Assembly (NCBI RefSeq): GCF_002094305.1
Contig: NZ_LWTX01000004.1
Span: 1 to 64,000, forward strand
Source of the DNA: Prescottella equi
Lineage (GTDB): Bacteria; Actinomycetota; Actinomycetes; Mycobacteriales; Mycobacteriaceae
DNA: 64,000 bases
Direction: 5' to 3'
The notes beneath the pieces were generated by a model. It saw only the letters and a program-made list of their open reading frames with translations. It ran no database searches and was not told the DNA's origin. A program made the position numbers and the translations under genes. This document shows positions 7,938-28,159 of this stretch, piece after piece (position 1 is the stretch's first letter; each line of letters starts with the position of its first letter).

Positions 7938-9101
7938 ATGGGTGGGGAGGAGCCGCGGGCCGACGCCGAGGGCCCGGCCGCGACCGGTCGCGGCAGCCGA
8001 CGAGCCGACCTGCGTTCACTGCGGGTGGCGATCGTCTACATCCTGCTCGCGGTCGCCGCCTACCAGGTCTCGGGTTGGCTGTTCCACCACATCCGGGACT
8101 TCCTCGGCATGCTGTTCCTCGCGTGGCTGGCCAGCGTCACCATCGAGCCCGTCGTCGACCGGCTCGAACGCACCGGTATGCGCCGCGGACTCGGAACCGG
8201 CCTCGTGCTGTTCGGGACGATCGTGTTCGCGATCGGATTCATCGCGATCTTCGGGGCGCTCCTGGCCGAACAGCTCGCGCAGCTGCTCGGAGCCCTACCC
8301 GACGCCCTGACCCGCGTGACCGATTGGGCCAACCGCAAATTCGGCACCGACTTCGCCACCGGCAAGGACCTCATCAACATCACGCCGGAGACGGTCCGGG
8401 ATCTCGCCGAGAAGTACACGCCCGGTGTGCTGGGCGTCGTCTCGACGCTCGTCGGGGTGATCTTCCAGGCCGCGACGGTGCTGCTGTTCGTCTTCTACAT
8501 GTCCGCGCAGGGCCCGCAGTTGCGCCGCACCATCTCCAGTTGGTTCCCGGCCCGTCAGCAGAAGGTGATCGCTTCGGTCTGGGAGATCTCCGTCGACAAG
8601 GCCGGCGGGTACGTGGTGTCGCGCGTCATCCTCGCGGCGTTCAGTGCGGTCGCCACCGGCATCTTCTTCCTGATCATCGGTGTCCCGTACTGGCTTCCGC
8701 TGGCGATCTGGACGGGCGTCGTCTCGCAGTTCATTCCGACGCTCGGCACGTACCTGGCGATCGGGCTGCCGGCCGTCATCGCTGCCGCCGCGCAGCCCCT
8801 GGACGCGGTGTGGGTGATCCTGTTCGGCACCGCCTACCAGCAGATCGAGAACTACATCCTCCACCCCCGGATCACCTCGCGCACCGTGTCGATCCATCCC
8901 GCGGTGGCGTTCGGGTCGGTGATCGTCGGCGCCTCGCTCTTCGGTGCCATCGGTGCGCTGGTGTCGGTGCCGGTGGTCGCGGTCATCCAGGCGATCGTCG
9001 AAACCTACGGCCACCGATACGAACTCGTCCAGGAAGTCGACGGTGGGCCGGACCGGGCCGCCGGGTCCGATGACGACGACGAGAACCGGGACGGCGAGTG
9101 A
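7938..9101 (+). CDS. AI-2E family transporter (PerM-like permease)
   Basis: The 387-residue membrane protein has about seven to eight hydrophobic segments. It shows the family pattern of an N-terminal pair of helices, a soluble middle part (about residues 110-155) and C-terminal motifs such as GTYLAIGLPAVIAAAAQP and QQIENYILHPRI. The family includes TqsA and PerM. Substrates vary (AI-2, sodium/proton exchange) and none is proven here. The C-terminus is acidic (DRAAGSDDDDENRDGE). The ATG has GGCGGAGGG upstream. It ends three bases from the convergent acyl-CoA ligase stop. Confidence 0.88.
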   Translation: MGGEEPRADAEGPAATGRGSRRADLRSLRVAIVYILLAVAAYQVSGWLFHHIRDFLGMLFLAWLASVTIEPVVDRLERTGMRRGLGTGLVLFGTIVFAIGFIAIFGALLAEQLAQLLGALPDALTRVTDWANRKFGTDFATGKDLINITPETVRDLAEKYTPGVLGVVSTLVGVIFQAATVLLFVFYMSAQGPQLRRTISSWFPARQQKVIASVWEISVDKAGGYVVSRVILAAFSAVATGIFFLIIGVPYWLPLAIWTGVVSQFIPTLGTYLAIGLPAVIAAAAQPLDAVWVILFGTAYQQIENYILHPRITSRTVSIHPAVAFGSVIVGASLFGAIGALVSVPVVAVIQAIVETYGHRYELVQEVDGGPDRAAGSDDDDENRDGE

Positions 9102-14555: not shown

Positions 14556-14603
14556 TCCCGAATGCCCGGCCTCGAACGAGTCGGCCAGGTAGGTTGGGGG
14601 GCG

Positions 14604-15782
14604 ATGACCGCAATATTGGCGGAACCCCTCTCCGAGGTCGTTGCCGCAGCCGAGAAGTTGCTCGCCCGTCGCACGGGCGCCGCTGTCCGACTCGTCGACC
14701 CAGTCGATCTCGGGGGGAGCGGCCGCACGATCGTGCTCCGAGTCCGCGTCGCCGAGAACCCGTTCTCCCTGCCCCGGACGCTCGTTCTCAAGCAGGTACG
14801 CGAATCGTCCCGCAAGGCGGCCGACCCGCGGCGGATCGAGTTCGACGGCGTCGACGACAACTCCGTCGATGTCGCCTTCCTGCGGGAAGCGGTGTCGTAC
14901 CAGTTCGCCACGGCGCTCGCTACGGAGAACCGGCCCGGCGCGGAGCTGCTCGCCTACGACTTCGAGACGCGCCTGCTCGTTCTCGGCGACCTCGGCGATT
15001 CCACGCCGTTCGCGACGCTGCTCAAGCACTCCGATCCCGACTCGGTCACGAACTCGCTGATGGCGATGGCGCAGGCCCTCGGCCGGATGCACGCGGCCAC
15101 GGTGGGTCGCGAAGAGGACTTCACGGCGCTGCTGCGGCGCGCCGAGGTGGCCCATTGCGGAGATGTGGTCGCGGAGCAGGCCGCAGCCTCGCTCGAGACG
15201 GTGCCGGCGCTGCTGGCCGAGCAGCTCGGGGTCGAGGTCTCGCCGGCCGTGCTCGACGTCGCGGCCCGGGCCGGCAAGCTGTTCGGCGGGGGCCGATTCC
15301 GCGCCTTCAGTCCGTCGGATCTGTGCCCGGACAACATCATCGTGAACGACGAGGGTGTCCGCTTCCTGGACTACGAATGGGGCGGCTTCCGCGACGCCAC
15401 CCTCGATCTGGCTTACGCGCTCGTCTCGTTCCCCGCCTGTCTGTGCAGCATCGAGTTGTCGTACGAGCGGGCGCGGGCGATGACCGAGGCCTGGCGCGCC
15501 GAGGTCGTCGGTATGTGGCCAGCCCTCGCGGACGACGACTTCCTCACCGAGCGCGTTCTCGACGCCCAGCTCGTGTGGGTGTGGCTGAGCACCTTCCTGT
15601 TCCTGCCGGAGGATTACACGCGCATCGCGGCCGTGCGGGGCCACCAGCTCTCCGCGCCGCGAGCCGAGGCTCTGCAGGCGCGATGGGGGAGCCTGGCGAC
15701 GTTCGCGGAGCAGACCGGCCACGAGGCCGTTGCGGAGCACGCCGCGCAGGTCCTCGCGCGTCTGCGCGAACGCATGCGCTGA
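14604..15782 (+). CDS. aminoglycoside phosphotransferase-like (kinase-fold) protein
   Basis: The 392-residue protein has an APH/choline-kinase-like fold. VLKQVRESSRKAADPRR carries the likely ATP-binding Lys, FSPSDLCPDNIIV is the catalytic loop, and FLDYEWGGFRDATLDLAYAL replaces the metal-binding DFG/DxD segment. The usual His of HxDxxxxN is Ser here, while Asp and Asn are kept. The substrate is unknown; antibiotic modification cannot be inferred. ATG 14604 is preceded by a G-rich ribosome binding site; ATG 14562 is less likely. It ends 11 bases from the convergent TetR gene. Confidence 0.75.
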   Translation: MTAILAEPLSEVVAAAEKLLARRTGAAVRLVDPVDLGGSGRTIVLRVRVAENPFSLPRTLVLKQVRESSRKAADPRRIEFDGVDDNSVDVAFLREAVSYQFATALATENRPGAELLAYDFETRLLVLGDLGDSTPFATLLKHSDPDSVTNSLMAMAQALGRMHAATVGREEDFTALLRRAEVAHCGDVVAEQAAASLETVPALLAEQLGVEVSPAVLDVAARAGKLFGGGRFRAFSPSDLCPDNIIVNDEGVRFLDYEWGGFRDATLDLAYALVSFPACLCSIELSYERARAMTEAWRAEVVGMWPALADDDFLTERVLDAQLVWVWLSTFLFLPEDYTRIAAVRGHQLSAPRAEALQARWGSLATFAEQTGHEAVAEHAAQVLARLRERMR

Positions 15783-15793
15783 CCGACAGCTCG

Positions 15794-16549
15794 TCAGCCG
15801 GCGTCCGCGGAGTCTTCCCGATCCGAGGCGCCGGCGACCAGCAGCTCGACGGAGCGACGCAGGTTCTCTCGTGCCGCCTGTTCCATGCTGGGCACACCAC
15901 CGCCGGGAGCCCCGTGTCCGAGCCCGCTCGCAAGAGGGAATCTCTCGGCGAAGTCGGGCGCGGCCGCGGCCAGTGCCTCCAGACGGGGATTCCACGACGG
16001 TTCTCCGGCGTCCTCGCCGGCCGACCGCGCGCGCCTCGCATCGACGATCGTCCGTGCGGCCGCGGCGGGAAGCGAGTACGCCGACGAGGCGATCGCCACG
16101 ACGTCCCGGCGATCGAAGCCGTAGGGCACGAGTGTGCCGAGGAGAAGCTCGAAGGCCTGCTGCTGATGGGGTCCGAGCACCGGGCGGGCGGGCGCGATGT
16201 CGAGTAGCCACGGGTGGGCGAGATAGAGGTCCAGGAGCCGCTCGGTCCATTCGATCACCGAAACCGGGGCCGCCGTCCCGAACTCTCGGTGGGCCCGGTC
16301 GTACATCAGGTCGAGCAGTTCGTCCTTCCCGTCGACGTAGGTGTAGAGCGCCATCGCGCTACATCCGAGGCGCTTGCCGATCGCGCGCAGCGGCACCGCG
16401 GTGTCACCGCGTTCGTCGGCGATCGCGGTGGCGGTGTCGATGATCGCGGCAAGCGTCAGACCCGTCTGTGAGGTGTGTTCCTCGCCCGGGGGCGTCCACA
16501 ACATCGACATCGTCCGGGACACACGCGGGTGTGCGGCCGTCGTGCCCAT
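15794..16549 (-). CDS. TetR family transcriptional regulator
   Basis: The 251-residue protein has an N-terminal helix-turn-helix (LTLAAIIDTATAIADERGDTAVPLRAIGKRLGCSAMALYTYVDGKDELLDL, about residues 32-82) and a C-terminal ligand domain resembling the TetR_C family of TetR itself. ATG 16549 has AGGAG upstream; the frame runs on to 17083 only because of GC bias. Two near-identical palindromes lie in the 154 bases shared with the divergent PIG-L gene, so self-regulation and control of that gene are likely. The ligand is unknown. Confidence 0.88.
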   Translation of the reverse strand: MGTTAAHPRVSRTMSMLWTPPGEEHTSQTGLTLAAIIDTATAIADERGDTAVPLRAIGKRLGCSAMALYTYVDGKDELLDLMYDRAHREFGTAAPVSVIEWTERLLDLYLAHPWLLDIAPARPVLGPHQQQAFELLLGTLVPYGFDRRDVVAIASSAYSLPAAAARTIVDARRARSAGEDAGEPSWNPRLEALAAAAPDFAERFPLASGLGHGAPGGGVPSMEQAARENLRRSVELLVAGASDREDSADAG

Positions 16550-16557
16550 CCATCTCC

Positions 16558-16568
16558 TTACACTGTAA
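16558..16568. promoter_or_regulatory. TetR operator 1 (TTAC-N3-GTAA)
   Basis: TTAC-ACT-GTAA, directly against the ribosome binding site of the TetR gene (start 16549). It matches operator 2 and would block TetR transcription or initiation when bound. Confidence 0.6.
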
Positions 16569-16588
16569 AGACTGCAGGTAGTAATCAC

Positions 16589-16601
16589 TTTACAACGTAA
16601 A
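16589..16601. promoter_or_regulatory. TetR operator 2 (TTTAC-N3-GTAAA)
   Basis: TTTAC-AAC-GTAAA shares TTAC-N3-GTAA with operator 1. The centres are 32 bases apart, about three helical turns, so dimers would lie on the same DNA face. It lies about 100 bases before the PIG-L start. Confidence 0.6.
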
Positions 16602-16703
16602 CCCCGATTGTGTGGAGGCTGGCCGAATTGTGTCCGTTCGGCGGTTCCGACTGTGGTGTGGCGCTGGGTGGACGAGACTGGAGCGACTCGGAAGGGATTC
16701 GGC

Positions 16704-17384
16704 ATGGACACGGGTACAGCGGACGCGGTTCTGGGTGAGATCGCTGCGGGCGGTCCGTCGCTCGTGGTGGTGGCGCATCCGGACGACGAGAGTTTCGGAT
16801 TGGGCGGGGTGCTGGCCGCGCTGGCGGTGCTCGGCGCCGACATTCGCGTGTTGTGCCTGACGGCCGGCGAGGCCAGCACGCTCGGCGCTGTCGTGGACCT
16901 CGCGGAGATACGACGCGACGAGCTGTCGGCCGCCGCCGCCGGCCTCGGAATCGGCGACGTCGCTCTTCTGGACTTCCCCGACGGCGGTCTGGACGGGGTG
17001 GACCCCGACGCGCTCGACGCGGTGGTGGTCGATGCGCTCGGAACGGCCGCGACGCTGGTCGTGTTCGAGTCGAGCGGCGTCACAGGTCATCCCGACCATC
17101 GTGCGGCGACGGCGTCCGCTGTCCGCGTCGCGCGTGAACGAGGTCTGCGGGTGCTCGAGTGGGGCGTGGCACCGGCCGTCGCCGACGCACTGAACCGCGA
17201 TTTCGGCGCGGCCTTCGCCGGGTTCGAGGGTGACGACGTGCTCGATGTGGCCGTCGATCGGGAGATGCAGGCTGCTGCCATCGCGTGCCACGCAAGCCAG
17301 GCCACCGACAACCCGGTCCTGCGCCGGCGTCTCGAGCTCTCGGGGCCCCTCGACCGGATCCGATCGACCACACAGCGGCGCTGA
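16704..17384 (+). CDS. PIG-L family deacetylase
   Basis: The 226-residue protein has the zinc-binding AHPDDESFGLGG motif (residues 20-31) and a downstream His motif GVTGHPDHRAAT. The family includes MshB and Mca-like deacetylases and N-acetylglucosaminyl-phosphatidylinositol deacetylases. It is shorter than MshB (about 290-300 residues), so another N-acetyl sugar or conjugate is likely. ATG 16704 has GGAAGGG upstream. It is divergent from the TetR gene and probably under its control. Confidence 0.85.
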   Translation: MDTGTADAVLGEIAAGGPSLVVVAHPDDESFGLGGVLAALAVLGADIRVLCLTAGEASTLGAVVDLAEIRRDELSAAAAGLGIGDVALLDFPDGGLDGVDPDALDAVVVDALGTAATLVVFESSGVTGHPDHRAATASAVRVARERGLRVLEWGVAPAVADALNRDFGAAFAGFEGDDVLDVAVDREMQAAAIACHASQATDNPVLRRRLELSGPLDRIRSTTQRR

Positions 17385-17424
17385 CCCCGGCTCGGGGGGT
17401 GTGGGCACAAGCACATTGTCGTGG

Positions 17425-17440
17425 ATACCCCAGGGGGTAT
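17425..17440. promoter_or_regulatory. CsoR/RicR-like operator palindrome
   Basis: ATACCCC-AG-GGGGTAT, with perfect 7-base arms, 41 bases upstream of the Cys-rich small protein. ATACCC/GGGTAT palindromes are typical of CsoR-family copper or persulfide repressors. No csoR gene is in the window. A TTGACG follows directly (17442-17447) and could be a -35 element. Confidence 0.6.
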
Positions 17441-17481
17441 TGTTGACGGCACGATCCGCAACATCCCCGAGGAGATTCATC

Positions 17482-17640
17482 GTGTGTTACCCCGTCACCT
17501 GCAAGACCTGCTCCAAGACCACGTGGGGCGGCTGCGGCCAGCACGTCGACAGCGTCATGCGGACGGTCCCGGCGAGTGAGCGTTGCACGTGCGAGAAGCC
17601 GGCCAAGTCGGGCTTCTTCGCATCGCTGTTCGGCCGCTGA
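17482..17640 (+). CDS. small Cys-rich protein (52 aa), possible metal or sulfur binder
   Basis: GTG 17482 with GAGGAG upstream opens a 52-residue frame: MCYPVTCKTCSKTTWGGCGQ and onward to FFASLFGR. Cys residues are at 2, 7, 10, 18, 35 and 37, with His21 between them, a pattern suited to a zinc or Cu(I) cluster or a small zinc ribbon. Similar short MCYPVTCK proteins occur in actinobacteria as hypothetical proteins, from memory. The CsoR-like palindrome upstream links it to copper or reactive sulfur. Its function is not established. Confidence 0.8.
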   Translation: MCYPVTCKTCSKTTWGGCGQHVDSVMRTVPASERCTCEKPAKSGFFASLFGR

Positions 17641-17682
17641 CCGGGCGCGTTTCGGCGGTGACGTCGTGCGCCCTGCCCGGTC
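17639..17682. terminator. possible hairpin between the Cys-rich gene and the ABC operon
   Basis: GACCGGGC (17639-17646) can pair with GCCCGGTC (17675-17682), with an alternative inner GGGCGC/GCGCCC pairing. It lies between two convergent stop codons; no T tract. Confidence 0.35.
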
Positions 17683-17695
17683 CGCGCGTTCGGCG

Positions 17696-19330
17696 TCACA
17701 CCGCGGCTGGTTGCCGGTCGGCGGAGCGGACGTCTCGACGCGACGGGTCGGGCAACGGCACCGCGTCGATCAGTGCCCGGGTGTAGGGGTCGTGGGGTGT
17801 CGTGAACACGGTATCCACCGGTCCCGCCTCGATCACCGACCCGGACCGCAGGACCGCGACCCGATCGGCGACCTGGTGGACCACCGCCAAGTCGTGGCTG
17901 ACGAACAGGCATGCGAACCCCAGGTCCTGCTGGATCGCGGTGAACAATTCGAGCACCTCGGCCTGCACGGACACGTCGAGAGCGCTCGTCGGTTCGTCCG
18001 CGATGAGCAGCTTCGGCCGAAGCGCGAGAGCGCGGGCCAGCGCGATCCGCTGGCGCTGTCCACCCGAGAGTTGGTGCGGGAGGCGGTCGGCGAAGGCGGC
18101 GGGCAACCGGACGGCGTCGAGGAGTTCGAGCACGCGACGGCGGCGGTCGGCCGCGGAGCCGACGCCGTGCACGTCGAGCGGCTCGCGAACACTTGCGCCG
18201 ATCGTCAGCCGGGGATCGAGGGAGGTCGCGGGATCCTGCTGGACGAACGCCACGTCGCGCCGCAGTTCGCGGAGATGCCGGGCGGTGATCTCGCCGAGAT
18301 CGAGCCCTTCGACCAGCACCCGGCCCCCGGTGAGCGGTACGAGTCCCACCGCGGCCCGCCCGAGGGTGGTCTTGCCGGAACCTGATTCCCCCACGAGCCC
18401 GAGAACTTCGCCGCGGCGGACCGTGAGGCTCACCTGGTCGACGGCACGGAAGGCGGGACTTCCGTGCCGTGCCGGGTACGTGACCGTGGCCGCGTCGAAC
18501 TCGAGCACGACATCGGCACCGGACGTCGGAGGCGGCGTCACGGCCGCCTCCTCGGGTAGTCGCGGAACCGCCGCCAGCAGGGATCGGGTGTACGGGTGTG
18601 TCGGGGCGTCGAACACCGCGTGCACACTGCCCGTTTCGACGACCCGGCCGGCGCGCATGACGACGACACGGTCGGCGTGCTGCGCCACGACACCCATGTT
18701 GTGAGTGATGAGCAGGATGCCCATGCCGGTTCGGGTGCGCAGGCGGTCGAGCAGCGCCAGGATCTCGGCCTGGACCGTCACGTCGAGGGCTGTGGTGGGC
18801 TCGTCGGCGACGAGCAGATCGGGTTCGCCCGCCAGGGCGAGCGCGATCGCGACCCGTTGCTTCTGCCCCCCGGACAGTTGGTGCGGGTAGTAGTCCACGC
18901 GTCGCTCGGGGTCGGGGATCTCCACCTGCCGGAGCAGGTCCACTGCCGCCGCTCGGGCGCCTGCCCTCGATGTCTTCCGGTGTGCGCGGATCGCCTCCCG
19001 TAGCTGCCAGCCGACGCGGCGTACGGGGTTCAGCGCGCTCTGCGGCTCCTGGAAGATCAGCGACACCGTGTTGCCGCGCACGCGGGCGAAGTCGGCGTCG
19101 GGGACACCGATCATTTCAGCGCCGTCGAGGACGATCGACCCTCGGGGAGTCGCGCCGTCGGGCAGAAGACCGAGGATCGCGCGGGCGGTCATGGACTTGC
19201 CGGAGCCGGATTCGCCGACCAGGGCCACGATCTCGCCGCGGTCGACGTCGAGGGAGGCGGAATCGACGGCGGGTCGTGCCGCCCCGAAGGCGATCGTCAG
19301 GTCGCGGATGTCGAGTAGTCGAGTGGTCAC
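17696..19330 (-). CDS. ABC transporter ATP-binding protein, two fused ATPases (DppD-DppF type)
   Basis: The 544-residue protein holds two complete ATPase domains. The first has Walker A GESGSGKS near residue 38 and signature [10 protein letters not shown]; the second has GESGSGKTT near 315 and [12 protein letters not shown]. Each also has an oligopeptide-type C-terminal extension ([26 protein letters not shown]). Such fusions energise peptide/opine/nickel-type importers. It is the last gene of the importer operon, 21 bases after the DppC-like permease. The gene context (sulfatase, TauD enzymes) suggests organosulfur rather than peptide uptake. Confidence 0.92.
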
Positions 19331-19351
19331 GAGAGTCCTTGGAATGGTGGT

Positions 19352-20218
19352 TCACCGCAGCCGTGACCGGGCGGCGAGGGCTTGCGAGATCAGGAGCAGT
19401 CCTAGTACCAGGACGACGACGACCGCGAGGGGGCCGACGACGAAGAACGGTGAGTGGTACGCATTCTGCGTCCCCTCCTTGATGAGGGAACCGAGCGACG
19501 GGGCCGGCGGAGTGATGCCGAGGCCGAGGAAGCTCATGGCTCCCTCGATGAACACCCCCACCGACATCGCCAGCGCGAGTTGCACTGTCAGTGGTTCGAG
19601 GCAGTTGGGCAGGACGTGTCGGCGCAGGATCCATCCCTCCTCGGCTCCGAGCGTTCTCGCGGCTTCGACGTAGGGCGCCTGCCGTACCGTGAGCACCGAC
19701 GTCCGGGTCAGCCGACCGAACACCGGGATCTCCGCAAGCACGATCACCGTCGCGATCGTCCAGATGCCGGGACCGATGACCATCGTGAGCGCGATCGCGA
19801 GGACGATGGTCGGGAACGCGAGGATCAAGTCGAACGCGCGTTGGACAACGGTGTCGATCCGGCCGTCCCGGGTCGCGGCGAGGCCGAGCAGCGAACCGGT
19901 CACCGCTCCGGCCGGCACCGCCAGGAAGATCACTACGAGATCGATCCGGATGCCGTAGAGGGTCCGGGACAGGATGTCGCGCCCGACGGAGTCGGTGCCG
20001 AGGAGATGCTCACCGCTCGGTCCGAGCAGCGCCGCGCCGGCGGTCTGTTCGTCGGGTGCGTACGGTGCGAGCCAGGGCGCAGCGAGGCCGGCGAGCGCAA
20101 CGATGGTCACCAGGACCACACCGGCCGACCCGCGACCCGTGCGCAACGCGGCCCAGCGACTGCGCCGATCGGTGGTGACGGCGGTCTCGTCCGGTGCGGC
20201 GTCCACAATTGCGCTCAT
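19352..20218 (-). CDS. ABC transporter permease, DppC type
   Basis: The 288-residue protein has an N-terminal helix followed by a binding-protein-dependent permease domain with about five further helices. The EAA-like loop EAARTLGAEEGWILRRHVLPN contacts the ATPase. Its start overlaps the stop of the DppB-like gene by four bases. It forms the permease heterodimer with that protein in the cytoplasmic membrane. Confidence 0.92.
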   Translation of the reverse strand: MSAIVDAAPDETAVTTDRRSRWAALRTGRGSAGVVLVTIVALAGLAAPWLAPYAPDEQTAGAALLGPSGEHLLGTDSVGRDILSRTLYGIRIDLVVIFLAVPAGAVTGSLLGLAATRDGRIDTVVQRAFDLILAFPTIVLAIALTMVIGPGIWTIATVIVLAEIPVFGRLTRTSVLTVRQAPYVEAARTLGAEEGWILRRHVLPNCLEPLTVQLALAMSVGVFIEGAMSFLGLGITPPAPSLGSLIKEGTQNAYHSPFFVVGPLAVVVVLVLGLLLISQALAARSRLR

Positions 20219-21174
20219 GCGTGACCACCCAGCCGGATGCGCGGATCGAGCCAGGCGTTGACGAGATCGGTGATCAATTGGACGGCGACGAACAACCCGA
20301 CGGAGAACAGCAGCATCACCTGCACCACCGGGTAGTCACGGCTCGAGATGGCCCGCTCGATCAGGTGCCCGAGTCCGGGCCAAGCGAAGATCGCCTCGAC
20401 GAGAACGGTTCCGCCGAGCAGATGCCCGACCTGCATGCCCAGTACCGTGACCGTCGACGGCAGCGCATTGGGCAGGGCCTGGGTCAGCACGATGCGCCGG
20501 CGTGAGATCCCGAGCGCGCGGGCCGTGGTGACGTACGGTTCGGCGAGTTGGCTGCGCAGCGATTCGGTGAGGAACCGGGTGAGCGCTGCTGCGATCGGCA
20601 GAGCCAGGCACACGGCGGGGAGGATCAGGTACTGCACGGAGATTCCGGGGTCGTCGAGAAAGCCGCTCCTCGGCACACCTCCCGCGGGCAACACCGCCCA
20701 CACCACACCGAACAGCACCACCAAAATCGTGCCGGTGACGAAATTGGGGATCGCGACGGCCACGGTGCCGAACCCGGTGACGACGCTGTTGAGCCAGCGC
20801 CGGTCGACGATCACCGAGACCGTGCTCATGGTGAAGGCGATGACGACGGCGAGCAGCAGCGCCGCCGCCGCGAGGACGACGGTGTTGCCGAGCGCGTCGA
20901 GCAGCAGGGAGCCGATGTCGCCACCGAGAATCAGCGAATGCCCGAGATCGAAGGAAGCGACACCACCGAGCCATGAGAAGTACTGGCCGACTTGGGAGCC
21001 GGTCAGACCGAGGTCGTCACGGATCGACTCGAGTGCTTTGGGAGAGGAGTCGGGGCCGGCGAGGATCTGGGCCGGGTCGCCCGGTACCAGCCGCAGCAGG
21101 GTGAAGATCACGACCGAACCGATGGCGAGCACGATCAACGCGGACGGGATCCGACGGAGGCTGTAGCGCAGCAT
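20215..21174 (-). CDS. ABC transporter permease, DppB type
   Basis: The 319-residue protein has six predicted helices, the DppB/OppB N-terminus (LRYSLRRIPSALIVLAIGSVVIFTLLRLVPGDPA) and the coupling loop TTARALGISRRRIVLTQALPN. It begins six bases after the substrate-binding protein stop and is translationally coupled to the DppC-like gene. Confidence 0.92.
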   Translation of the reverse strand: MLRYSLRRIPSALIVLAIGSVVIFTLLRLVPGDPAQILAGPDSSPKALESIRDDLGLTGSQVGQYFSWLGGVASFDLGHSLILGGDIGSLLLDALGNTVVLAAAALLLAVVIAFTMSTVSVIVDRRWLNSVVTGFGTVAVAIPNFVTGTILVVLFGVVWAVLPAGGVPRSGFLDDPGISVQYLILPAVCLALPIAAALTRFLTESLRSQLAEPYVTTARALGISRRRIVLTQALPNALPSTVTVLGMQVGHLLGGTVLVEAIFAWPGLGHLIERAISSRDYPVVQVMLLFSVGLFVAVQLITDLVNAWLDPRIRLGGHA

Positions 21175-21180
21175 CGTCGG

Positions 21181-22755
21181 TCACCCACCCAGGTAGGCGT
21201 CGCTCAGGTCGAGCTCGCCCTTCTTGGTCCAGCCCACGCCCTGGAGGGCGGCGGACGCGGCCAGCTCGTTCTCGTGGTTGAACAGGCCGATCACGAAGGC
21301 GTTGTCGAGTAGCTCGGTGTTCAGTGCGCGGTACGCGTCCTCGGCGTCAGTACTGCTCGGATCGGTGATCCCCCAGACTTTTTCGACGGCGGCCTGGTAT
21401 CCGGGGTCGATGAAGTTCGACGTGTTCTTGTTCGCGTTGTAGACGTAGGCGCTGGTGGGCAGGGTTGCCGGTGTGTACTGCGCGAAGGTGTGTTCGGTGA
21501 TCCACAGGCCGCCGTAGGTGCCCGCGATCAGGTTCTTGAGCGTGGTGGCCTGATCCTGGGGCTGGAGGGTGGTCTCGATCCCGACCGCGGCGAGGTCGGC
21601 CTGCACGATCTGCGCGACCGCCTCGGATTCGGTGGATCCCGCCGTGTAGGCGACGGGGATGACCGGCACGCTGCCGACCTCGCCGACCAGTGCCTTGGCC
21701 TTCTCGGTGTCGTGGTCGTACGTGCCGTTCAGGTCCGCGTCGAATGCGGGCGAATACTGCGGCCACGGCAGGTTGGCGAGATCCCCGTGCCCCTGGTAGA
21801 CGTCGGCGACGATCCGGTCTCGATCCACCGCGTGGGCGATCGCCTGGCGAAGCCGGATGTCGCCGAGTCCCGGCGCCTGCACATTGGCGCCGATGTAGGC
21901 GGTGCGCTGCACACCGGTCTGGTCGACCACCCGGAAACCGGGATCGGCGCCCAGTTGGTCGGCGTCGCGGGGCGCGACGTTGAGCAGCAGGTCGAGTTGG
22001 CCGGAGCGCAGCTGCGACACCCGCGTCTGGGCGTCGGGGACGATGACGTACTCCACCCCGTCGAGGTGCGGCGCGCCGTCCCAGTACTGTTCGTTGACGT
22101 CGAACGTGATCGACGCTCCCGGCTTCCAGGCGGCGAACCGGAACGCACCGGTCCCGTTGTACCCCTTGCCGGTATCGAGGTCGGGCAGTGTGTCGACGTC
22201 GATGATCGGCATGACGTCGAAGAGGTCGAGGAAGTTGCCGGCGGGCCTGGCAAGCGTGAGCGTGATCGCGTGCGGATCGCTGGTGTCGAAGCCCGTGACC
22301 AGGGCGGCTGTGCGGGCGAGCTGCCCGGATCGGGCCGGATCGGCGTACGTCCGGATGCTGGACTCGACGTCCGCCGAGGTGAACGGCTTGCCGTTGTGGA
22401 AGGTGACGTCGTCGCGCAACTCCAGGTGCACGGACAGCTTGTCCTCGGAGACCGTCCAGGACGTCGCCAGTTTCGGCTGCGGATCGAGGCTGTCGGCGGG
22501 GTAGCGGATGAGGGTGTCGTAGACCAGTCCGGTGATGGTGGCCTGCGCGGGGGCGCCCGAGTACAGCGACGCGGGGGTCAGATCACCACCGTCACCGATT
22601 CGAAGGATACCGCCCTCCGTGACCTCGGTACGGGTGTCGGCGCCGGCCTGGTCGACCGCGGAGTTGCACCCCGCGGCGCCGAGGACGCCGACGACGGACA
22701 GGACGAGGGCTCCCAGTAGGGAGCGACTCCGGGGGAGCGCGGGACGGCTGAACAC
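21181..22755 (-). CDS. ABC transporter substrate-binding lipoprotein, family 5 (DppA-like)
   Basis: The 524-residue protein has a lipoprotein signal ending in GAAGC and an SBP family 5 fold (LATSWTVSEDKLSVHLELRDDVTFHNGKPFTSADV shows the classic motif). It captures the substrate outside the membrane and delivers it to the permeases. GTG 22755 has AAAGGA upstream; the ATG at 22857 would put the start inside the conserved promoter block and lacks a ribosome binding site. The substrate is unknown; the shared promoter with the TauD operon points to a sulfur-containing compound. Confidence 0.9.
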   Translation of the reverse strand: MFSRPALPRSRSLLGALVLSVVGVLGAAGCNSAVDQAGADTRTEVTEGGILRIGDGGDLTPASLYSGAPAQATITGLVYDTLIRYPADSLDPQPKLATSWTVSEDKLSVHLELRDDVTFHNGKPFTSADVESSIRTYADPARSGQLARTAALVTGFDTSDPHAITLTLARPAGNFLDLFDVMPIIDVDTLPDLDTGKGYNGTGAFRFAAWKPGASITFDVNEQYWDGAPHLDGVEYVIVPDAQTRVSQLRSGQLDLLLNVAPRDADQLGADPGFRVVDQTGVQRTAYIGANVQAPGLGDIRLRQAIAHAVDRDRIVADVYQGHGDLANLPWPQYSPAFDADLNGTYDHDTEKAKALVGEVGSVPVIPVAYTAGSTESEAVAQIVQADLAAVGIETTLQPQDQATTLKNLIAGTYGGLWITEHTFAQYTPATLPTSAYVYNANKNTSNFIDPGYQAAVEKVWGITDPSSTDAEDAYRALNTELLDNAFVIGLFNHENELAASAALQGVGWTKKGELDLSDAYLGG

Positions 22756-22853
22756 AGGGGGTCCTTTCGGGGCCGTGTGGAGGTGAACTCGCAGGGGCGA
22801 GGTGGGGGCGTCGATCGGGATGTCGGCGCGCCTGGGCTGAAAAGCTCCGAGGA

Positions 22854-22918
22854 TCAAAGTAATTGGGAGGAATTAAATTGCGGAGGTATCGGATCCACGT
22901 GCGTCGAATCCTTTACAG
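22854..22918 (-). promoter_or_regulatory. conserved promoter block A of the ABC importer operon
   Basis: This block shares long identical runs with block B (27351-27416): TCAAAGTAATTG, ATTAA, GTGCGTC and TTTACAG on the plus strand, in the same order and spacing to within one base. Read in the direction of transcription it starts CTGTAAA, then GACGCAC, then an AT-rich stretch about 100 bases before the importer start. It probably contains the promoter and an activator site of a sulfur-limitation regulator. Confidence 0.65.
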
Positions 22919-22943
22919 GGCCGCTCACAGGACCGTCGCGCGG

Positions 22944-25274
22944 TCAGTGCGTGACGAGCTCCGCCGCGAGCCGCTGAGCGTCGGTGGGCCGGCCGCCGGC
23001 TGCTTCGGTCTCGAGAGTGACCTCGCCGATCCGACCGGTGTACCGGTACTCGTCGCCGCGGGCGTAGTCGGAGGTGACCGGCGTGCCCGGGTTCGCACCC
23101 ACCGTCAGCCGACCGGACCCGAACAGGGCCGTGCGTTCGACGCGACCCTCCCCGACGATCCGACCGTCGACGAGGATGCGACCGGTCCCGCCCCGCCCGA
23201 TGCCTCCGCCGTCATAGGCGAACAGGTACTCGAGCAGGTGTTCGCCGGCCGCGAGCGACTCGGTGGCGCGTACGTGCGTGGTGACCACACTGCACAGGTT
23301 GTGGGCGAACGTCACCACCCCTTCCCGGACGTAGAAGGACAGCCCGTTGAAGGAGTTGCCCAGGCTCACCAGAACGCCGTCGGACTCGGCACTGTCGGCC
23401 ACTACGGGCACGCTCAGCCGAAACGACGTGTTCGATGTGCTGGGGAATGCGGCGGTCGGTAGTCGCCGTGTGCCGGCCGGCACGGTGACCCGCCCGCCCA
23501 GGTCGGGGACGCGGCGCCCTGCGACGGCCGCGTCCATGCGTTCGATGCCTCGGTCGTCGAGCGGCAGCACCTGGTGTAGCCGTGCCTGCTCCAGGAACAG
23601 CTCTTGCAGCGCGGCCAGCCGTTCCGGGTACTCGGAGGCCAGATCGGTGGCCTGGGAGAAGTCACGGGTGATGTCGTACAGCTCCCACGTGTCCTGGTCG
23701 AACGGGATGGGGTCGGTTCGCGACAGGTCCCACGGAGAACGGTGCTTGGTGACCGCGGTCCAGCCGTCGTGGAAGATCCCGCGGTTGCCGAAGATCTCGA
23801 AGTACTGGGTGAGGTGCCGGTCCGGCGCGGCGCCGTCGCGCAGGGCGTACAGCATCGAGGTGCCCTCGATGGGGCGCTGGGCGATCCCGTCGACCCGGTC
23901 GGGATGCGGGATCCCGGCGGCCTCCAGAATGGTCGGTGCCACGTCGATGACGTGGTGCCATTGTGTGCGGACGCCACCTCGATCGGAGATCCCCTTGGGC
24001 CAGTGCACGACGAGCCCGTTGCGCGTTCCACCGAAGTGCGACGCGACCTGCTTCGTCCACTGGAAGGGGGTGTCCATCGCCAGGGCCCAACCGACGGGGT
24101 AGTTCACGTAGCTGGTCGGACCCCCGATCTCGTCGAGGCGATCCCGAATCTCGGCGGCGGTTTCCGGCAGTCCGTTGTAGGTCCGCGACTCGTTGAACGT
24201 GCCCGTCAGGCGTCCCTCGCAGGACGCGCCGTTGTCGCCCAGGATGTAGAAGACCACCGTGTTCTCGAGCTCCCCGGCGGCGCGGAGAAACTCGACCAGC
24301 CGACCGACCTGCTCGTCGGTGTGCTCGGCGAACGCCGCGTACATCTCCATGAGCCGTTCCGCGACGACGCGACCGTCGTCGTCGAGCTCGTCCCAGTGCG
24401 GGGCGCCGTCGGGCCAGGGCGACAGGAGCGTGCCGGGCGGGACGACGCCCAGCTCCTTCTGCCGCTCGAGGGTCTGCTCACGTTGCGCGTCCCAGCCGTG
24501 GCCGAACTTCCCGCGGTACCGGTCCCGCCACGAATCCGGAACCTGGAAGGGGGAGTGGGTGGCGCCGAAGGGCAGGTAGGCGAACCAGGGACGGTCCTTG
24601 TCCACGTCGCGCACCGATCGGATCCAGTCCCTGGTCTTGTCGACGAGGTCCTCGGAGAGGTGATAACCCTGCTCCGGCGTCGACGGCGGCTCCACCTGCG
24701 CGGTGCCGGAGTACAGGTTCGGGTGGAATTGATCGTCGGCCCCGCCGATGATCCCGTAGAAGGTGTCGAAGCCCTCCCGAGTCGGCCAGTGCGTGAACGG
24801 GCCGACGGGAGTGATCTCGTCCTGCGGGATCTGGTGCCACTTGCCGAACACGCCGGTCGCGTAGCCGTTCTCCCGCAGGGTCCGCGCCAGCGGAGCGGCG
24901 TCCAGCGGTCGGACACCCGTGTAGCCCGGTGCGCTGGAGGAGAAATCGGTGACGACTCCCATTCCCACGCTGTGGTGGTTTCGCCCCGTGAGCAGCGCCG
25001 CCCGCGTCGGTGAGCAGATCGCCGTGGTGTGGAAGCGGTTGAACCTCAGCCCGTCGGCCGCCAACTGCTCGGCCACCGGCATCGAGCACGGCCCGCCGAA
25101 GGCCGACGAGGCACCGAAGCCCATGTCGTCGAGCAGAATCACCAGCACGTTGGGTGCACCCTGGGGTGCGGTCACTCTCGGGGGCCCGGGGAAGGGCACC
25201 TGCTGATCGCGGACGTCGTGCGCGGCGTCGACGGTCTCCGGGGTGAGGTGAATCGGTAGCTGAGTGCGATCCAT
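22944..25274 (-). CDS. type I sulfatase (arylsulfatase AtsA-like)
   Basis: The 776-residue protein has the metal-binding start NVLVILLDDMGFG and the formylglycine signature CSPTRAALLTGR (C-x-P-T-R), whose Cys must be converted by a formylglycine-generating enzyme. GVFGKWHQIP is the next active-site motif. The length matches the long mycobacterial/pseudomonad arylsulfatases (about 780). It releases sulfate from sulfate esters and has no signal peptide, so it is probably cytoplasmic, consistent with an importer supplying substrate. ATG 25274 has GAGGAG upstream; the frame runs on to 26054 but overlaps the dioxygenase gene. Confidence 0.92.
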   Translation of the reverse strand: MDRTQLPIHLTPETVDAAHDVRDQQVPFPGPPRVTAPQGAPNVLVILLDDMGFGASSAFGGPCSMPVAEQLAADGLRFNRFHTTAICSPTRAALLTGRNHHSVGMGVVTDFSSSAPGYTGVRPLDAAPLARTLRENGYATGVFGKWHQIPQDEITPVGPFTHWPTREGFDTFYGIIGGADDQFHPNLYSGTAQVEPPSTPEQGYHLSEDLVDKTRDWIRSVRDVDKDRPWFAYLPFGATHSPFQVPDSWRDRYRGKFGHGWDAQREQTLERQKELGVVPPGTLLSPWPDGAPHWDELDDDGRVVAERLMEMYAAFAEHTDEQVGRLVEFLRAAGELENTVVFYILGDNGASCEGRLTGTFNESRTYNGLPETAAEIRDRLDEIGGPTSYVNYPVGWALAMDTPFQWTKQVASHFGGTRNGLVVHWPKGISDRGGVRTQWHHVIDVAPTILEAAGIPHPDRVDGIAQRPIEGTSMLYALRDGAAPDRHLTQYFEIFGNRGIFHDGWTAVTKHRSPWDLSRTDPIPFDQDTWELYDITRDFSQATDLASEYPERLAALQELFLEQARLHQVLPLDDRGIERMDAAVAGRRVPDLGGRVTVPAGTRRLPTAAFPSTSNTSFRLSVPVVADSAESDGVLVSLGNSFNGLSFYVREGVVTFAHNLCSVVTTHVRATESLAAGEHLLEYLFAYDGGGIGRGGTGRILVDGRIVGEGRVERTALFGSGRLTVGANPGTPVTSDYARGDEYRYTGRIGEVTLETEAAGGRPTDAQRLAAELVTH

Positions 25275-25495
25275 CGGGGCTCTCCTCTGTTCTGAACGAA
25301 CCGTCGCGCGCCGGTCCGAGAGGTCCGGGAATTCGCCCGGTAGGTGCTGAAGCTGCTGCCGCTGACGTCGAGCCGCCGCGGGTGACGACCGGTGGCGAAT
25401 CGGATTCGAGAAGTGCGCCGCGGTGCCGCAATTCTCCTCCGTCGCGAAGGCGCCGAAGGTGAATTGCGCTCGGTTCCTTCCCCGGTCCAGGTGGG

Positions 25496-26461
25496 TCAGG
25501 CGTCGAAGCCGGGGAAACGGTCGGGGGTGTCGACGACCGAGAAATGCGACGCGTCGCCGGTGAGGATGCGGCTGGCATCCCCGTCGACCGATACCGGGAC
25601 GTCGCCGGCCAGGGTCACCCGGTGCACGCTGCGCTTGTGGGTGCCGAAGTCCGCGATGCCGTAGTGCTGGGTCGCGCGGTTGTCCCAGATCACCAGATCG
25701 CCCGGCGCCCAGGCCCAGCGCAACGTGTTCTCGAGCCGAACGACGCGCTCCTGCAGGAGCTGGAACAGTGCAGCCGACTCGTTGGTCTTGAGTCCCACGA
25801 AGTTCTTGACGAAATGACCGAGGAGCAGCGACCGCTCGCCGGTTTCGGGATGCACGCGCACGACCGGGTGCTCGATCTCGAACTTCAGGCGCGTGAAGTT
25901 CTGCATCGTCTCGTGACGGTTGACCGCGATGCCCTTGCGGTCGGCGTGTACGCCTGCGTAGTCGTACTCGTTCGAGTGCACCGCCCACAGGCTGTCGACG
26001 AGGGCCTTCAGGGGGGCGGGAAGCTGCTCGTAAGCCGCGGTGGTCGAGGCCCACGTGGTGGCGCCACCGTAGGGCGGGATGTCGACCGCTCGCAGGATCG
26101 ATGCCTTCGGGATCCGGTCGACGAAGCTGACGTCGGTGTGCCAGCTGTTGGCGGCGCCCTCGATGACGAGCGTCCGGTTGTCCTCGGACGTCAGCGTCGG
26201 ATGGGTGGTGGTCTGCGAGCCGAGGGTGCCGGCGAACCGGTACTGGATGTCGTCGGTGACGTGGTGCTGGCCGCGGAAGACGACGACCTTGTTCGCGGCG
26301 AGGGCGTAGCGGATCGCGTACGCGGTCTCGGCGGGGATGTCCCCGGAGACGTGCACGCCCTCGATCAGGGCGCCGATGTTCTCGCCGAGTCGGGTGACGG
26401 TGATGCCGCCGGCGGCGTAGATGTCGTGCGCGGTGGACGGGCGGGTCTCGACGGTGGTCAC
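25496..26461 (-). CDS. TauD/TfdA family Fe(II)/2-oxoglutarate dioxygenase (alkylsulfatase AtsK-like)
   Basis: The 321-residue protein has the iron ligands WHTDVSFVD (HxD) and a distal His in HKRSVHRVTLAGDVP with the 2-oxoglutarate-binding Arg. Family members hydroxylate taurine, alkyl sulfonates or alkyl sulfate esters to release sulfite or sulfate. The length and N-terminal style (ITVTRLGENIGALIEGVHVSGD) resemble the alkylsulfatase AtsK group, although substrates cannot be fixed by sequence. It is 43 bases downstream of the second dioxygenase gene. Confidence 0.88.
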   Translation of the reverse strand: MTTVETRPSTAHDIYAAGGITVTRLGENIGALIEGVHVSGDIPAETAYAIRYALAANKVVVFRGQHHVTDDIQYRFAGTLGSQTTTHPTLTSEDNRTLVIEGAANSWHTDVSFVDRIPKASILRAVDIPPYGGATTWASTTAAYEQLPAPLKALVDSLWAVHSNEYDYAGVHADRKGIAVNRHETMQNFTRLKFEIEHPVVRVHPETGERSLLLGHFVKNFVGLKTNESAALFQLLQERVVRLENTLRWAWAPGDLVIWDNRATQHYGIADFGTHKRSVHRVTLAGDVPVSVDGDASRILTGDASHFSVVDTPDRFPGFDA

Positions 26462-26504
26462 GATTGCTCCTCTGCTGTGGGTGACGGGTACGGCCTGTGC
26501 TGTG

Positions 26505-27311
26505 TCAGCGCGCGGGGACGGGTGCCTCGGGCGCGACCTCGATGCGATGGATCCGACGCGGCTCGTCGCCGTAGTCGTAGATGGCGTTGTGCTGGACGAA
26601 GTGGTTGTCCCAGACAGCGATGTCCCCTACGCTCCAGCGGCGGCGGACGGTGAACTCGGGCCTGATCGACACCGTCTTCAGCAGTCCGAGCAGCGCCCGG
26701 CTCTCGTCCTCGGTGACCCCGTCGATCGCGGAAGTGAAGAGGTCGTTGACGAACAGCGCCTCGCGTCCTGTCTCCGGATGCCGGATCACCAGCGGGTGCC
26801 TCGCCTCGGGGACGTTCGGCAGTGGCGCGATCCGATGCGTCGCAGTGAGTCCGTACAGCGCTTCGCGGATCGGGGGCGAGAGTGCGTCGAGCGCCGCGTA
26901 CTGGTTGGACCACAGCGTGTCGCCGCCGACCTCCGGGAGCACCTGCATGTGCAGGATGCTGAAACGTGACGGCTCGGCTCTCCACGCGACGTCGCAGTGC
27001 CAACGGTTGGCCTGGTAGGCGCTGCCGTTGTCGGTGCTGATCACACTGATCTCGCGGTAGCCCTCGTCGCCGAGGTGAGCGAGGTGCTCGTGCGGATACA
27101 CGATGTCGCCGAAGTGCTGCGCGAAAGCCCGGTGGGTGGCGGGGTCGACGCCCTGCTCGGGGAAGAACAGCACCCCGTGGTCGTGCAGGGCCGTCCGGAC
27201 GAGCTCGACGTCGGCGCCGGACAGGGCGGCCACGTGGAGACCGCGCACCTCGGCGCCGATCGCTCCGGCCAACGGTGTGACGGTCACCGTGGCGGCTTCG
27301 AGTGTCGTCAT
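26505..27311 (-). CDS. TauD/TfdA family Fe(II)/2-oxoglutarate dioxygenase
   Basis: The 268-residue paralog of the neighbouring enzyme has WHCDVAWRAEP (HxD) and a distal His in EPRRIHRIEVAPEAP. The two share layout but differ in length and sequence, suggesting different sulfonate or sulfate ester substrates. It is the first gene of the dioxygenase operon and starts 40 bases downstream of promoter block B. Confidence 0.88.
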   Translation of the reverse strand: MTTLEAATVTVTPLAGAIGAEVRGLHVAALSGADVELVRTALHDHGVLFFPEQGVDPATHRAFAQHFGDIVYPHEHLAHLGDEGYREISVISTDNGSAYQANRWHCDVAWRAEPSRFSILHMQVLPEVGGDTLWSNQYAALDALSPPIREALYGLTATHRIAPLPNVPEARHPLVIRHPETGREALFVNDLFTSAIDGVTEDESRALLGLLKTVSIRPEFTVRRRWSVGDIAVWDNHFVQHNAIYDYGDEPRRIHRIEVAPEAPVPAR

Positions 27312-27350
27312 CGGTCGTCCTCGAATCTGTGTGGGGGACTGGGATGATCG

Positions 27351-27416
27351 TCAAAGTAATTGCCGAGTATTAATTTCTGGAATGGATTCGCTCCGTGTGC
27401 GTCCAGGGGTTTACAG
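27351..27416 (-). promoter_or_regulatory. conserved promoter block B of the dioxygenase operon
   Basis: Counterpart of block A (22854-22918). Identical runs are TCAAAGTAATTG, ATTAA, GTGCGTC and TTTACAG, with total spacing one base longer. In the transcribed direction it reads CTGTAAA, GACGCAC, then an AT-rich segment ending CAATTACTTTGA, 40 bases before the start codon. Confidence 0.65.
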
Positions 27417-27505
27417 ATCGGCGGCCGCGCGATATTCGTGAGCGCAGGACGCGCTTCGGCGTCGGCACGTCGACCCGAGATCCGACGCGATTAGGGTGAG
27501 CAGCC

Positions 27506-28159
27506 ATGACTGCCAGACGCGGCCGCTACAGCGCCGGCCAGGAAACGCGCGTCCTCCTGGTGGAGACAGCCGAACGGTTGTTCGCCCAGCGCGGCTACGA
27601 CGCCGTCACGCTCGCCGAGATCCGCAGTGCCGCAGGTCAACACAATGCATCGGTGATCGGCTACTACTTCGGGTCGAAGGAGAAACTGCTCGAAGCGGTC
27701 CTCGAGCACCGCCTGCCGGCCGTCAACGCGCACCGCGAGCGGATGATCGGCGAGCGGAGGACCGCCGACGGTCGGCTGACCGTTCGCGACGCCCTGTGGT
27801 GCCTCGTGCAACCGCTCGCCGACAGCGTGCGCGAGGGAAATCACTACGTCGGCCTGCTCGACCGGCTGCTGGACGCCGAGATCCTGGGAAGCGTGTTCGG
27901 CTCCGCGGATCCCACCGTGACCGCGAGTGGCCTCGCCGTGGACCAGGCTCTACGCGAGGCCCTCGATGATCTTCGGGACGAGGTCCGCCTGCAGCGGATC
28001 ATGATGGTCTACGAGAGCGCGCTGCGGACGCTGGCGCGAATCGCCCGCTCGAGCGGGTCCCCCGATCGCGGCGAGCTCTCGGCGTGCATCGACGCCTGGG
28101 TGGGGTTGCTGCGTGCGCCGACGTCCGACGAGACCCTCCGTGCGCGCGCTCACTCCTGA
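27506..28159 (+). CDS. TetR family transcriptional regulator
   Basis: The 217-residue protein has a typical N-terminal helix-turn-helix (LLVETAERLFAQRGYDAVTLAEIRSAAGQHNASVIGYYFGSKEKLLEAV, about residues 15-65). The C-terminus is a ligand domain of unknown specificity. It diverges from the dioxygenase operon and is a candidate local regulator, but no TetR-type palindrome was recognised between them. The link is by position only. Confidence 0.87.
   Translation: MTARRGRYSAGQETRVLLVETAERLFAQRGYDAVTLAEIRSAAGQHNASVIGYYFGSKEKLLEAVLEHRLPAVNAHRERMIGERRTADGRLTVRDALWCLVQPLADSVREGNHYVGLLDRLLDAEILGSVFGSADPTVTASGLAVDQALREALDDLRDEVRLQRIMMVYESALRTLARIARSSGSPDRGELSACIDAWVGLLRAPTSDETLRARAHS

Follow-up and report, generated by a model that had tools for sequence, protein, structure and literature searches.

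CysB, Cbl and SsuR are LysR-type sulfur regulators. The control of organosulfur scavenging in Rhodococcus and Nocardia is poorly known, and passages of a report on Rhodococcus qingshengii IGTS8 describe a genome without known global sulfur regulators; in the proteomics of this strain presented there, sulfatases and TauD-type enzymes were commoner on dibenzothiophene than on sulfate (PMC8557817). For the TetR-family regulators of Streptomyces, passages of another report describe the divergent neighbour gene as repressed by all five regulators tested with an intervening gap under 200 base pairs (bp), and of four regulators with longer gaps, three were without effect and one activated, the 200-bp rule being considered unreliable above that length (PMC3511530). 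Here we describe a promoter block that occurs twice in a 64,000-nucleotide stretch of Prescottella equi DNA (contig NZ_LWTX01000004.1, positions 1 to 64,000; hereafter the window), once before a group of dioxygenase and sulfatase genes and once before the genes of an ATP-binding cassette (ABC) importer. In our reading, to which a rough probability of 0.58 is given, each block would be a promoter with a built-in candidate operator for the TetR-family protein encoded divergently beside the first block, acting as a repressor.

Position, likeness and conservation of the two blocks

The blocks, named P1 and P2, have starts 4497 bases apart.

27351..27416, minus strand: P1 (block 1, 66 bases), candidate promoter/operator block 5' of the tauD1, tauD2 and sulfatase genes, placed by alignment and by homologous blocks in relatives
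22854..22918, minus strand: P2 (block 2, 65 bases), second copy, 5' of the substrate-binding protein and ABC importer genes, placed by alignment and by the same position in 2 relatives

Read in gene direction (minus strand), P1 and P2 share, in this order, the words CTGTAAA, GACGCAC, TTAAT and CAATTACTTTGA, with the extra short words GGA, AT, TCC and AA at matching places. Aligned locally, the two intergenic regions reach a best score of 44, with 45 of 65 aligned pairs identical and one gap, and none of 2000 dinucleotide shuffles of both regions reached this score (maximum 34). P1 was also compared with the window cut into 200-base segments, at 100-base steps and on both strands; the one holding block 2 scored 44, and those overlapping neither block scored at most 26. 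A sequence-only reading of this DNA had proposed a duplicated block, larger than a core promoter and with spacing differing by one base, that connects the transporter genes with the dioxygenase genes, and it was borne out on each of these points: P1 precedes tauD1, tauD2 and the sulfatase gene, P2 precedes the genes for a substrate-binding lipoprotein, two permeases and a double ATPase (all on the minus strand), and the block is conserved across Rhodococcus and Nocardia. P1 and P2 have the appearance of a single promoter present in two copies, each with a candidate site for the adjoining regulator. A structured RNA leader or riboswitch was rejected as an explanation: at gathering scores Rfam gave no match in the window, and no consensus fold emerged, with no consensus pairs in seven sequences.

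Conservation was followed through the regulator gene, tetR. A scan with an alignment of TetR proteins found 159 relatives, from which 80 loci were kept; the best 19 (at least 51% identity) were used for the comparison and the other 61 were left out. In 16 of the 19, tetR is divergent from tauD genes. Two search models, R1 and R2, were built from these sites, which therefore score highly by construction, the test being absence elsewhere. With R1 the block is recovered in 15 of the 16 related tetR-tauD gaps (16 of 17 counting the window), and in the remaining one, of R. globerulus, the block was aligned by hand, its right part without gaps. The P2 copy was found only in three genomes, those with a sulfatase gene in the cluster; besides the window they are R. 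hoagii AcN21-7 (G012) and Rhodococcus sp. OK519 (G010), both of which keep P1 and P2 in the same places. Sulfatase matches above 90% identity occur in only the same three of 300 genomes, with all others at 56% or less.

The inverted repeat and its candidate binder

The anatomy of the block was drawn from 20 sites (17 P1 and 3 P2), which are related and not independent, with a numbering that puts the hexamer TACTTT at -12 to -7 by assumption. The elements are as follows.

27351..27378, no strand assigned: 28-bp imperfect inverted repeat in P1, candidate TetR operator, arms 7/10 complementary, 8-base spacer
22854..22881, no strand assigned: 28-bp imperfect inverted repeat in P2, arms 7/10
27353..27358, minus strand: probable -10 box of P1, TACTTT, within the right repeat arm (TANNNT form, strong conservation)
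22856..22861, minus strand: likely -10 box TACTTT of P2 (column conservation)
27382..27416, minus strand: upstream element of P1, of the type TGTNAA..CGCA..GATNNNAT (column conservation, strict pattern)
22884..22918, minus strand: upstream element of P2 (column conservation, strict pattern)

The conserved columns split into two parts, the right from -32 to -5 and the left from about -68 to -37. The right part is the 28-bp inverted repeat, TCAAAtTAAT, 8 bases and ATTACTTTGA, which was picked from an all-position scan whose top score for 8-base arms was reached by 0 of 100 column shuffles (eight such tests). Its arms pair at a mean of 7.1 of 10 positions over the 20 sites; when the left arm is shifted by -12 to +8, pairing never exceeds 4.25, and 8 of 20000 permutations of the left-arm columns reach 7.1. 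Agreement between the arms is 9/10 in five of the six Nocardia sites and 8/10 in the sixth. In the P. equi genome itself, the repeat is matched with up to three mismatches only by P1 and P2. Over 101 genomes, the repeat pattern gave four matches outside the cluster, against five for a reversed control, and the P2 copies of OK519 and AcN21-7 fail it at three mismatches. Two of the four words pointed out by the sequence-only reading, TCAAAGTAAT(TG) and ATTAA, turn out to be the arms of one inverted repeat, and the remaining two form the upstream element. For direct repeats in the block, 5-base words gave AATTA/AATTA at 14 bases as the best case (1 of 100 shuffles), which may be explained by the inverted repeat. 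Judged by eye, conserved positions of the upstream element recur at 11-12 bases, an impression on which no claim is based. No TTGACA-type promoter was found within 22700-27600.

The candidate binder is the product of tetR, which carries the TetR_N domain (Pfam PF00440, E=2.7e-12) and matches TetR-family structures in the PDB (best E=3.1e-10). The gap between tetR and tauD1 measures 194 bp (27312-27505), under 200 bp, and tauD genes are the divergent neighbours of tetR at all 17 P1 sites. Neighbour genes in the relatives were assigned solely through matches to 12 window proteins, and another conserved regulator gene nearby in these genomes is conceivable. In the compact gaps (loci L033, L035, L037 and L041) only 14 to 44 bases separate the upstream end of the block from the start of tetR, so a protein bound at that end could also affect tetR. 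Overall, the 28-bp repeat would fit an operator for a divergent TetR-family gene better than a LysR site.

Several observations weigh against this assignment. The repeat overlaps the -10 box, which would be conserved anyway, and its arms agree at 7/10 in the window's own two sites and at 4/10 in the poorest, that of Rhodococcus sp. CH91. The upstream element (TGTNAA, CGCA, GATNNNAT) holds no significant dyad or direct repeat and is left unexplained by it. In at least three relatives out of 16 (L030, L035, L040) tetR and tauD lie 206-241 bp apart, which weakens the argument from gene context. Moreover, three TetR proteins of 51-55% identity whose helix-turn-helix is almost unchanged, from R. 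gordoniae, R. coprophilus and CH91 (L042, L043 and L044, around position 9001), have no adjoining tauD genes, and model R1 finds no block in their tetR gaps; at E<=10 model R2 finds none in the genomes of R. gordoniae and R. coprophilus, and CH91 holds the cluster elsewhere. That helix, therefore, does not always accompany this site. At these three loci the divergent neighbour starts, by eye, like a short-chain dehydrogenase.

Two further observations concern tetR. In L036, L037 and L041 the arm of the candidate operator differs from TTTGA where residue 46 of TetR is R or G and not H, N or Q; this co-change of residue and arm, with few independent cases, is suggestive only. In the window (27480-27506, plus strand) the hexamer TAGGGT, a candidate -10 box kept in several relatives, stands 8 bases before the tetR ATG, and judged by eye tetR is likely leaderless.

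The local TetR might also bind the whole stretch from -68 to -24 and activate instead of repressing. The lack of a good -35 box and the conservation of all 65 bp are in keeping with this, and passages of PMC3511530 describe TetR-family proteins that activate, such as AtrA. However, the repeat covers the -10 box, where a bound protein is expected to block the polymerase, and the upstream element lacks a significant dyad, so activation by TetR is considered unlikely.

Reach of the site and origin of the second copy

The sequence-only reading had placed the blocks in a regulon of sulfur limitation, with a LysR-type regulator resembling CysB or SsuR as one candidate, and this part of it was not supported. 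At E<=10, R1 returned two sites in the P. equi genome and R2 the same two, P1 and P2 (the best 150 of 499 first-look candidates were scored for R1 and the best 150 of 771 for R2). R2 was also run over 400 relatives, with the best 12 candidates scored per genome and stricter filters (calibration was rough in all these model searches), and 34 genomes matched at E<=0.1. The 15 strong sites, in 12 genomes and with E<=6.7e-9, each lie in a tetR-tauD or sulfatase-transporter gap of this cluster. The next-best match has E=0.006, and the 23 weak sites (E 0.006-0.098), found in the 22 other matching genomes, compare with a chance expectation of about 40 matches at E<=0.1 over 400 genomes; none of 18 weak-site loci checked matched any of the 12 window proteins. 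Over 61 genomes the pattern of the 3' half gave six sites and that of the 5' half, the upstream element, gave three, all within the cluster, with one match for the reversed control of the latter. When the window by itself was scanned with filters off, the two blocks came up, and nothing else scored better than E=0.42. A genome-wide sulfur-limitation regulon was rejected, no sites having been found at unlinked sulfur genes by model scans and exact patterns that would miss strongly diverged ones, and the block does not look like part of such a regulon.

Conservation to about -68 is typical of many upstream activators. This reach, the lack of a consensus -35 box and the sulfur-scavenging types of the genes could speak for a dedicated LysR-type (CysB/SsuR-like) activator of sulfur limitation with sites across the genome, but the counts given above place the two own-genome sites, the 15 strong sites in relatives and all half-pattern sites in the cluster. 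In addition, the adjoining regulator gene is of the TetR family, and no LysR was found among the ten window proteins scanned (14562-28156), the relatives' neighbours not having been scanned for LysR. Passages of the report on R. qingshengii IGTS8 likewise describe that strain as lacking a homologue of CysB, Cbl, CmbR or McbR (PMC8557817). Taken together, a LysR-type activator of this kind appears improbable.

Turning to the origin of P2, tauD2 stands directly after the block and tauD1 is missing at all six Nocardia loci, and tauD1 comes first in 8 of the 10 Rhodococcus loci with tauD genes. In OK519 (L008:11514-11602) a remnant of tauD2 lies between P2 and the substrate-binding protein gene. 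It consists of two collinear pieces on the same strand, one of 46 nucleotides that is 87% identical to early codons of the genome's own tauD2 (E 1.9e-11) and one of 36 nucleotides with 83% identity to the tauD2 end, reaching 15 nucleotides past the stop (E 5e-6), both E-values being against its 19-kb locus. From this remnant it follows that P2 once preceded a tauD2 copy. P2 arose when a unit of promoter and tauD2 was duplicated, and the additional tauD2 then decayed; either copy may be the original. No recognisable tauD2 remnant was found after P2 in the window or in AcN21-7; elsewhere in the AcN21-7 locus there is a 25-nucleotide match (E 3.6e-4). At L024:9760-10690 of Nocardia flavorosea (G144), fragments of substrate-binding protein, permease and ATPase genes follow tauD2, with the block and tetR kept.

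The same remnant, in showing a common origin by duplication, raises the question of whether P1 and P2 are alike through shared ancestry alone, with RNA polymerase as the sole binder. We hold this to be improbable as well: from Rhodococcus to Nocardia the block persists, whereas outside close relatives the remainder of the tetR-tauD gap gives, by eye, poor alignments, and the window and AcN21-7 keep the P2 block though the tauD2 remnant is no longer recognisable.

The genes of the cluster are listed below.

27506..28159, plus strand: tetR, divergent TetR-family regulator gene, candidate binder (Pfam TetR_N; divergent neighbour at 17/17 P1 sites)
26505..27311, minus strand: tauD1, TauD-family Fe/alpha-ketoglutarate dioxygenase (domain and structure-database matches)
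25496..26461, minus strand: tauD2, TauD-family dioxygenase close to the AtsK/Rv3406 alkylsulfatases
22944..25274, minus strand: sulfatase gene, flanked by tauD2 and the transporter genes in 3 genomes (ATG start at 25274 by comparison)
21181..22755, minus strand: substrate-binding lipoprotein, SBP_bac_5 (GTG start at 22755 by comparison of relatives)
20215..21174, minus strand: ABC permease, DppB/NikB type
19352..20218, minus strand: ABC permease, DppC/NikC type
17696..19330, minus strand: double ABC ATPase

The tauD2 product matches the alkylsulfatases Rv3406 (1.2e-90) and AtsK (2.3e-88), with TauD (1gqw) far weaker at 9.3e-39; its top two matches are the putative dioxygenase 4y0e (8e-121) and 4j5i, named taurine dioxygenase (1.4e-111). 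The tauD1 product is TauD-like, with PlaO1 as best match, and points to no clear substrate. The sulfatase matches a 536-residue arylsulfatase (PDB 1hdh) at 4e-73. As judged from these matches, the cluster likely serves sulfate-ester scavenging, in which sulfur is freed from organic sulfate esters, and the sulfur-scavenging character that the genes had been given earlier agrees with this. A second sulfatase gene, 40% identical, lies 3' of the ATPase gene in AcN21-7 (L007:1039-3234).

Proposed control and comparison with described systems

From the computed features, namely the duplication, the conservation, the inverted repeat, the two own-genome sites, the unchanging tetR neighbour and the remnant of tauD2 in one relative, we infer TetR binding, repression, a ligand and sulfur control as follows. 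The TetR-family protein most likely binds the 28-bp repeat (TCAAAtTAAT-N8-ATTACTTTGA) over the likely -10 box and the spacer, and in this position it would block RNA polymerase. Release would come through a small-molecule ligand; a sulfate ester is plausible here, as is a breakdown product. The promoter has no good -35 box and would probably be helped by a protein sitting on the upstream element (about -68 to -37), either a different one or a further unit of the TetR-family protein. Common control at P2 would keep the importer in step with the enzymes despite the intervening sulfatase gene.

A more specific form of this proposal is put forward tentatively: a two-input promoter cassette private to the cluster, in which a TetR operator over the -10 box is combined with an upstream site for a sulfur-starvation activator, copied whole. 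Duplication of promoter and gene would then have kept an operon, split by the new sulfatase gene, under joint control. The analysis offers two candidates for direct testing, a regulator and a 28-bp operator, and the gene fossil of one relative illustrates how separated gene sets may keep joint control through promoter copying. Among the literature matches listed, neither the block nor the regulator is named in a title or the start of an abstract, subscription papers being mostly outside the search.

In comparison with CysB, Cbl and SsuR, the locus shares a plausible sulfur-scavenging physiology; it differs in the lack of any spread regulon found and of a LysR among the ten window proteins scanned. 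The likeness to the AtsK/Rv3406 alkylsulfatase dioxygenases (for Rv3406, PMC3675115) lies in the matches of the tauD2 product to both. Unlike them, this product has two better matches (4y0e and 4j5i), and tauD2 is encoded here beside a peptide/nickel-type ABC importer, plus a sulfatase in three genomes. A parallel is also offered by TetR repressors with divergent targets, as in the TetR/tetA model and among the Streptomyces regulators of PMC3511530, with which the locus shares the divergent gene order, the gap under 200 bp in the window and a putative inverted-repeat operator in that gap. In contrast to those systems, a second candidate operator copy 4.5 kb away would serve importer genes, and a further upstream element is conserved here.

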